A stretch of 64,000 nt of DNA from Enchytraeus crypticus (lineage: Eukaryota > Annelida > Clitellata > Enchytraeida > Enchytraeidae). The DNA lies in assembly GCA_905160935.1 (NCBI GenBank), contig CAJHZI010000818.1:1886001-1950000 (forward strand). Reading direction: 5' to 3'. The notes beneath the pieces were generated by a model. That model ran no database searches. It was not told the origin of the DNA and was given only the letters and a program-made list of their open reading frames with translations. Shown here one piece after another: positions 48,629 to 64,000 of the stretch. The position numbers were made by a program, and so were the translations under genes. Numbering within the stretch: the first letter of the stretch is position 1; each line of letters begins with the position of its first letter.

Positions 48629-49107
48629 CTAGTAATATCTCGGTAATGTACCATATTCTCCAAATCTGTACGACATCTCTTTTTTTGGAGTATCCAAATA
48701 CAAAGCGTCCTCGAGATCATCGTAGAATTTATTCAGCTCAGACGTGGCTGAGCCACAACGATCATTTGAAAGGTAGCACTCTCCCCAGGACACTGGACGA
48801 GACTGCTCGACAATTCTCCAGCCTGAAATATATCTTCCTGAAGCTCCAACTTTCCCAGAATAATCAATCTCTTTGGAAGATCTCAGCGAACCTAGAGCCA
48901 GACGCAATTCAAGCTCAGAAGCAAGGGATGGAACGGTACGAGTTGGTTTGGCTGGACTACGATAAGCTGTTCCAGTGCCGGTGCTAGTCGGAGAGGTGGT
49001 GTAGTTAGAGGTGGCAGGACCTGTGCGGTTGAAACAGTCGTGGTATCTCTGTGGTACTTTACGAAGTGGAATGTTGAAAGTCACTCGTCTGGGTGAGATA
49101 GAATCTT
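48629..49107 (-). CDS. NPH3-like gene, last exon with stop
   Basis: Acceptor TTCGTCACCGCAG, phase 1. It encodes [20 protein letters not shown], a Thr/Ser-rich middle, [19 protein letters not shown] and a C-terminus [14 protein letters not shown], stop at 48629-48631. The tail has no recognised domain; long, phosphorylatable tails are common in NPH3 proteins. Confidence 0.78.

Positions 49108-64000: not shown

Follow-up and report, generated by a model that had tools for sequence, protein, structure and literature searches.

A BTB-NPH3 gene in the annelid Enchytraeus crypticus and a putative animal branch of the NPH3 family

Proteins that combine a BTB domain with an NPH3 domain have roles in plant phototropism and in the polarity of auxin transport, and the accessible parts of the literature describe them as plant-specific. 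In the available text of a 2005 survey by Stogios, the combination is reported from Arabidopsis only among 17 genomes (PMC1257465). A stretch of 64,000 nucleotides from the annelid Enchytraeus crypticus (assembly GCA_905160935.1, contig CAJHZI010000818.1, positions 1,886,001 to 1,950,000 of the forward strand; hereafter the window) therefore poses a question, as a preliminary description of its letters proposed an NPH3-domain-like gene at its right end: is this an animal member of the family, where did it come from, and what might its product do? The NPH3 interpretation is supported by the analysis reported here. We consider it probable that the locus is a resident, single-copy annelid BTB-NPH3 gene, that it belongs to an undescribed animal branch of the NPH3 family, and that it most likely encodes a dimeric adaptor of CUL3 ubiquitin ligases. 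The view that NPH3 is nearly restricted to plants agrees with the literature, but members were found in several animals. No account of an animal NPH3 protein was found in the literature searched, which covered few subscription papers and no preprints, and neither NPH3 nor BTB is a term used in the main text of the E. crypticus genome paper (PMC8460440).

Gene model and domain content

The observation itself is confirmed. Splice sites were set by eye and the joins then computed, giving eight minus-strand exons whose joined frame is free of internal stops and encodes an 870-residue protein (Table 1). Seven of the eight exons are complete within the window; exon 1 extends beyond the right edge, and its start ATG lies 295 bases further on, at extended coordinate 64295 (contig position 1950295). 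The protein segments quoted in the preliminary description are all on the minus strand and in the order given there. Its seven exons of consistent phase held up as far as the open frame and the phases are concerned (2, 2, 1, 1, 1, 1, 1 in gene order), but the exons number eight, the first lying only partly in the window.

A Pfam scan of the joined protein placed NPH3 (PF03000) above its curated cut-off (E 1.2e-12, 48.5 bits versus 27), with a BTB domain N-terminal to it at residues 5-99 (E 2.5e-12, 47.4 bits versus 20.5). This BTB domain, for which the preliminary description had pointed to the DNA right of the window, is encoded by exon 1. Neither BACK nor Kelch appeared in the scan at E values up to 10, a range in which HMMER filters remove most matches above about 0.1, and a BTB-BACK-Kelch identity was rejected for lack of either match. 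The remaining rows were all under their cut-offs (BTB_SANBR, 0.0054; DUF4129, 0.14; DUF3786, 0.22). An NPH3 domain above cut-off together with an N-terminal BTB supports membership in the BTB-NPH3 family, known in plants as NPH3/RPT2-like (NRL), as judged from sequence.

The NPH3 signal is thin in separate pieces. The segment spanning the last part of exon 1 to exon 3 scored 0.027, the end of exon 4 plus exon 5 scored 1.2e-5 (25.5 bits, under the cut-off), and no signal was seen in the first part of exon 4 alone or in the tail alone; the joined region minus an insert in exon 4 scored 1.3e-11. The family assignment therefore depends on the exon joins, and for this reason weight was placed on relatives. 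In an alignment with nine of them, join 1|2 falls within a conserved stretch, joins 2|3, 3|4, and 4|5 fall in loops separating aligned helices, and a database fragment, P0072, ends no more than 2 residues from the exon 4/5 junction. Of the seven introns, six have GT-AG ends, and the one after exon 6 requires a GC donor. The tail encoded by exons 6 to 8 aligns only loosely with relatives, and no candidate for an overlooked short exon in the intron after exon 5 rose above a rough splice score.

Table 1. Exons of the BTB-NPH3 gene, in window coordinates
Feature	Coordinates	Strand	Content
Exon 1, 3' part	63925..64000	-	BTB exon; rest lies right of the window
Exon 2	63277..63447	-	Start of post-BTB region; helices align with plant and animal relatives
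Exon 3	59171..59487	-	NPH3 helices and poly-Gln stretch
Exon 4	57368..58168	-	NPH3 core helices; 118-residue insert at about 57543-57896
Exon 5	55207..55380	-	C-terminal NPH3 helices
Exon 6	52479..52625	-	Tail; GC donor, 3' end uncertain, unsupported by any relative
Exon 7	50289..50441	-	Tail
Exon 8	48629..49107	-	Ser/Arg-containing tail; stop TAG

Two features that had been described as distinctive are present in milder form. The insert, said to comprise about 130 acidic residues, is 118 residues long with 21% Asp plus Glu; it was not seen in seven aligned non-plant relatives, and two aligned plants have a shorter loop nearby. The long Ser/Arg tail amounts to 259 residues with 15% Ser and 8.5% Arg.

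Intron 2 contains two further elements. A perfect 136-nucleotide direct repeat (59157-59292 and 59572-59707, 415 bases apart) places a copy of the last part of exon 3, splice donor included, in the intron. On the strand opposite the gene, a 293-residue reverse-transcriptase open reading frame (60321-61202, plus strand; RVT_1, 1e-19) resembles, by eye, a long interspersed nuclear element.

Animal relatives and their place in the family

Animal relatives, which the preliminary description proposed to look for as orthologues, were found among rotifers and in one nemertean and one octocoral. A protein search with residues 1-620 scored 7,992 candidates, none of which reached E 0.001; our guess is that low-complexity words filled the candidate list. 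The octocoral Xenia, the rotifer Adineta steineri, and the plant Cajanus each contributed one of the 13 relatives returned with residues 1-235, and ten others made up the remainder. The Xenia relative, P0006, carries the source name "root phototropism protein 2-like." A profile search found at least 89 relatives, many of them short and labelled BTB only; it scored the 7,993 candidates sharing the most words, so that a missing group has little meaning. Its animals include the bdelloids Adineta, Rotaria, and Didymodactylos, the monogonont Brachionus calyciflorus, and the nemertean Tubulanus polymorphus, and its plants include the liverworts Marchantia and Calypogeia. Members are thus known from four phyla (annelid, nemertean, rotifers, and cnidarian), and the nearest relative of the window protein is 37% identical to it. 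When six non-plant relatives were rescanned with Pfam, BTB passed in all six and NPH3 in five, the Xenia protein falling under the cut-off at 23.4 bits.

With the BTB domain removed, a profile of 14 non-plant rows matched a profile of 13 plant rows across 313 columns (probability 99.5, E 5.1e-23), versus E values of 0.48-0.75 for five shuffled plant profiles. Within the BTB domain, LH[KT]FPL is common to all 22 plant and all 27 non-plant rows, and PGG to 20 and 27 of them, respectively; this signature was picked after viewing the alignment and has no published definition. The window protein resembles plant NRL proteins in its domain order, in the LHKFPL...PGG signature, and in post-BTB profile homology, but it sits on a separate deep branch, is 22% identical to the aligned plant row, and has an insert and a tail of its own. 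A coiled coil after NPH3 is usual in the family, though not universal. An Adineta model has a helix at 437-472; in the corresponding stretch of the window gene an intron intervenes, and a search there for a missing exon gave no strong candidate. A C-terminal RxS is the 14-3-3 site of phototropin-regulated NRL proteins, according to the available text of PMC10441985. The motif is typical of plant rows (17 of 22) versus 2 of 27 non-plant rows, and it does not occur among the 25 C-terminal residues of the window protein, which therefore falls outside the phototropin-regulated subclass.

The animal members also differ among themselves. Xenia P0006 and ten close relatives (557-614 residues) share the BTB and NPH3-type regions with the window protein, but not their common C-terminal extension. 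That conserved extension of about 110 residues (VTLNV ... GEHYEKKKH ... YWPF), present in all 11 Xenia-like proteins (P0001-P0011), was not seen in other aligned members. The rotifers Adineta, Rotaria, and Brachionus and the T. polymorphus protein P0057 match the window protein in the order BTB-NPH3 and in an N-terminal GELSDI motif, and rotifer C-termini (GTYSSYRY in P0012) bear a faint likeness, by eye, to a segment of the window protein. They differ in being without the 118-residue insert; P0012 and P0057 have shorter tails, and Brachionus has its own long insert elsewhere. Two bdelloid BTB-NPH3 models, P0018 and P0024, also hold PF01826 and may be gene-model fusions.

A tree of 49 rows was built with IQ-TREE from the window protein, P0072, and found proteins of at least 480 residues (51 of 99 were shorter and were excluded); the tree is unrooted, and its sampling does not extend to green algae or protists. 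The 22 plant and 27 non-plant rows form the two sides of a single branch with support of 100/100 and a length of 1.74 changes per column, and no non-plant row is nested among plants. The rotifers group together (100/97), as do the 11 Xenia-like rows (100/100), while the window protein stands beside P0072 weakly (84/27), with a program warning on long branches that meet. Rooted on plants, the free tree fails to bring the spiralian rows together, yet a single spiralian group was not rejected (approximately unbiased test, p-AU 0.273). Given the 100/100 split, a recent transfer from plant to worm is unlikely, and one from land plants does not fit the tree. Two histories agree with it: vertical inheritance from a common ancestor of plants and animals, followed by many losses, or a single old transfer. 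With relatives in several animals, the NPH3 family appears to include an animal branch that has been overlooked.

Genomic setting

The assembly comprises 524,188,772 bases in 802 contigs, and the gene lies on a contig of 2.5 Mb. Eight open reading frames of the window were tested; two had no match, and the others matched presenilin, UDP-glucuronosyltransferase, PAXX, CTLH, C2H2 zinc fingers, and reverse transcriptase, in line with the metazoan neighbours of the preliminary description. Its observation that introns hold the same repeats as their surroundings applies to four of the seven introns. An exon for PAXX, a DNA end-joining factor, is at 25436-25837 on the plus strand (E 6.8e-11).

The gene looks single-copy. 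A genome search showed no second copy; beyond six self matches, it gave at least eight matches with E values between 0.0038 and 8.7, of which six fall in the BTB part. An exon-by-exon NPH3 family search of the whole genome gave nothing at E 0.001 and was silent in all control genomes too, which makes it uninformative. A viral source was considered and set aside, as 27 stretches matched a pattern and none encoded a relative.

On the mitochondrial contig (15,205 bp) the genes share a strand; their order under code 5, judged by eye, is cox1-cox2-cox3-nad6-cob-atp6-nad5-nad4L-nad4-[gap, presumably rRNA]-nad1-nad3-nad2, which is the annelid order. The accessible text of the published genome gives a 15,205-bp mitochondrial genome in Lumbricus order and a total of 525,192,231 bp in 910 scaffolds at 35.4% GC (PMC8460440). 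Five further COX1 fragments, on contigs other than the mitochondrial one (C361, C424, C796, C373, and C166), are probably nuclear copies of mitochondrial DNA; four have TAA/TAG stops and C373 has TGA only.

Proposed function and rival readings

The predicted fold of a rotifer relative is BTB-BACK-like, and its nearest solved folds are CUL3 adaptors. Because of this modeled likeness, a CUL3-adaptor role for the window protein is likely. The BTB domain would form dimers and also bind CUL3, helices at the start of the NPH3 region would extend the CUL3 docking surface in a BACK-like manner, and the more distal NPH3 helices, with the disordered tail, might select a substrate or membrane site. We infer that the gene is expressed.

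Two alternatives concern how the gene came to be in an annelid assembly. Contamination by plant or algal DNA, or a decayed and unexpressed copy, is very improbable. The GC donor needed by exon 6 and the exon 3 piece duplicated in intron 2 could be taken as signs of it, but the 2.5-Mb contig, the animal neighbours, and the repeats common to introns and flanks led us to reject contamination, as the preliminary description had done, and decay sits poorly with a joined frame that has no internal stop despite a nearest relative of such low identity. Horizontal transfer, with a plant or streptophyte alga as donor and an animal ancestor or several animal lineages as recipient, is a more serious contender that we nevertheless regard as unlikely. 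Bdelloids are known for foreign genes, and the free tree leaves the spiralian rows apart. E. crypticus itself is reported to have 32 confirmed transferred genes, 25% of them of plant origin (PMC8460440), and the survey that saw BTB-NPH3 in Arabidopsis alone points the same way. Against transfer stand the long, fully supported plant/non-plant branch, the spread of members over four phyla, and the spiralian group that was not rejected. One old, single transfer is nonetheless conceivable, being compatible with an unrooted tree of this sample.

For the protein itself, an ordinary animal BTB-BACK (KLHL-like) gene with a chance likeness to NPH3 in its BACK region is extremely improbable. Such a gene would account for the fold predicted for the relative and for the PDB sequence matches, where the best 60 of 63 fall on the BTB region of ordinary animal BTB proteins. 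Adaptors such as KBTBD2 and KLHL11 do share that predicted arrangement, but the window protein has no Pfam BACK or Kelch and an NPH3 match above cut-off; the post-BTB profile match far exceeds its shuffled controls, and every plant and non-plant row has LH[KT]FPL. It is also doubtful that the protein, while of the same family, is a membrane or kinase-linked scaffold and not a CUL3 adaptor. PINs are plant proteins, the nearest solved folds are CUL3 adaptors, and the RxS site is missing from the C-terminal residues, all of which count against a scaffold, whereas the long, low-complexity tail and insert would suit one. The model is plant MAB4/MEL, which with AGC kinases is proposed to keep PIN polarity by limiting lateral diffusion, in the available text of PMC8112251.

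There is about an even chance that BTB-NPH3 was not a plant invention: it would have served as a CUL3 adaptor in the plant-animal common ancestor and persisted in cnidarians and several spiralians while the model animals lost it, with plants adding the phototropin/14-3-3 switch later. A database name such as that of the coral protein can mask a real family. The animal branch would offer a route to an NPH3-domain role outside light signaling, and small invertebrates may be the place to seek its ancestral partners.
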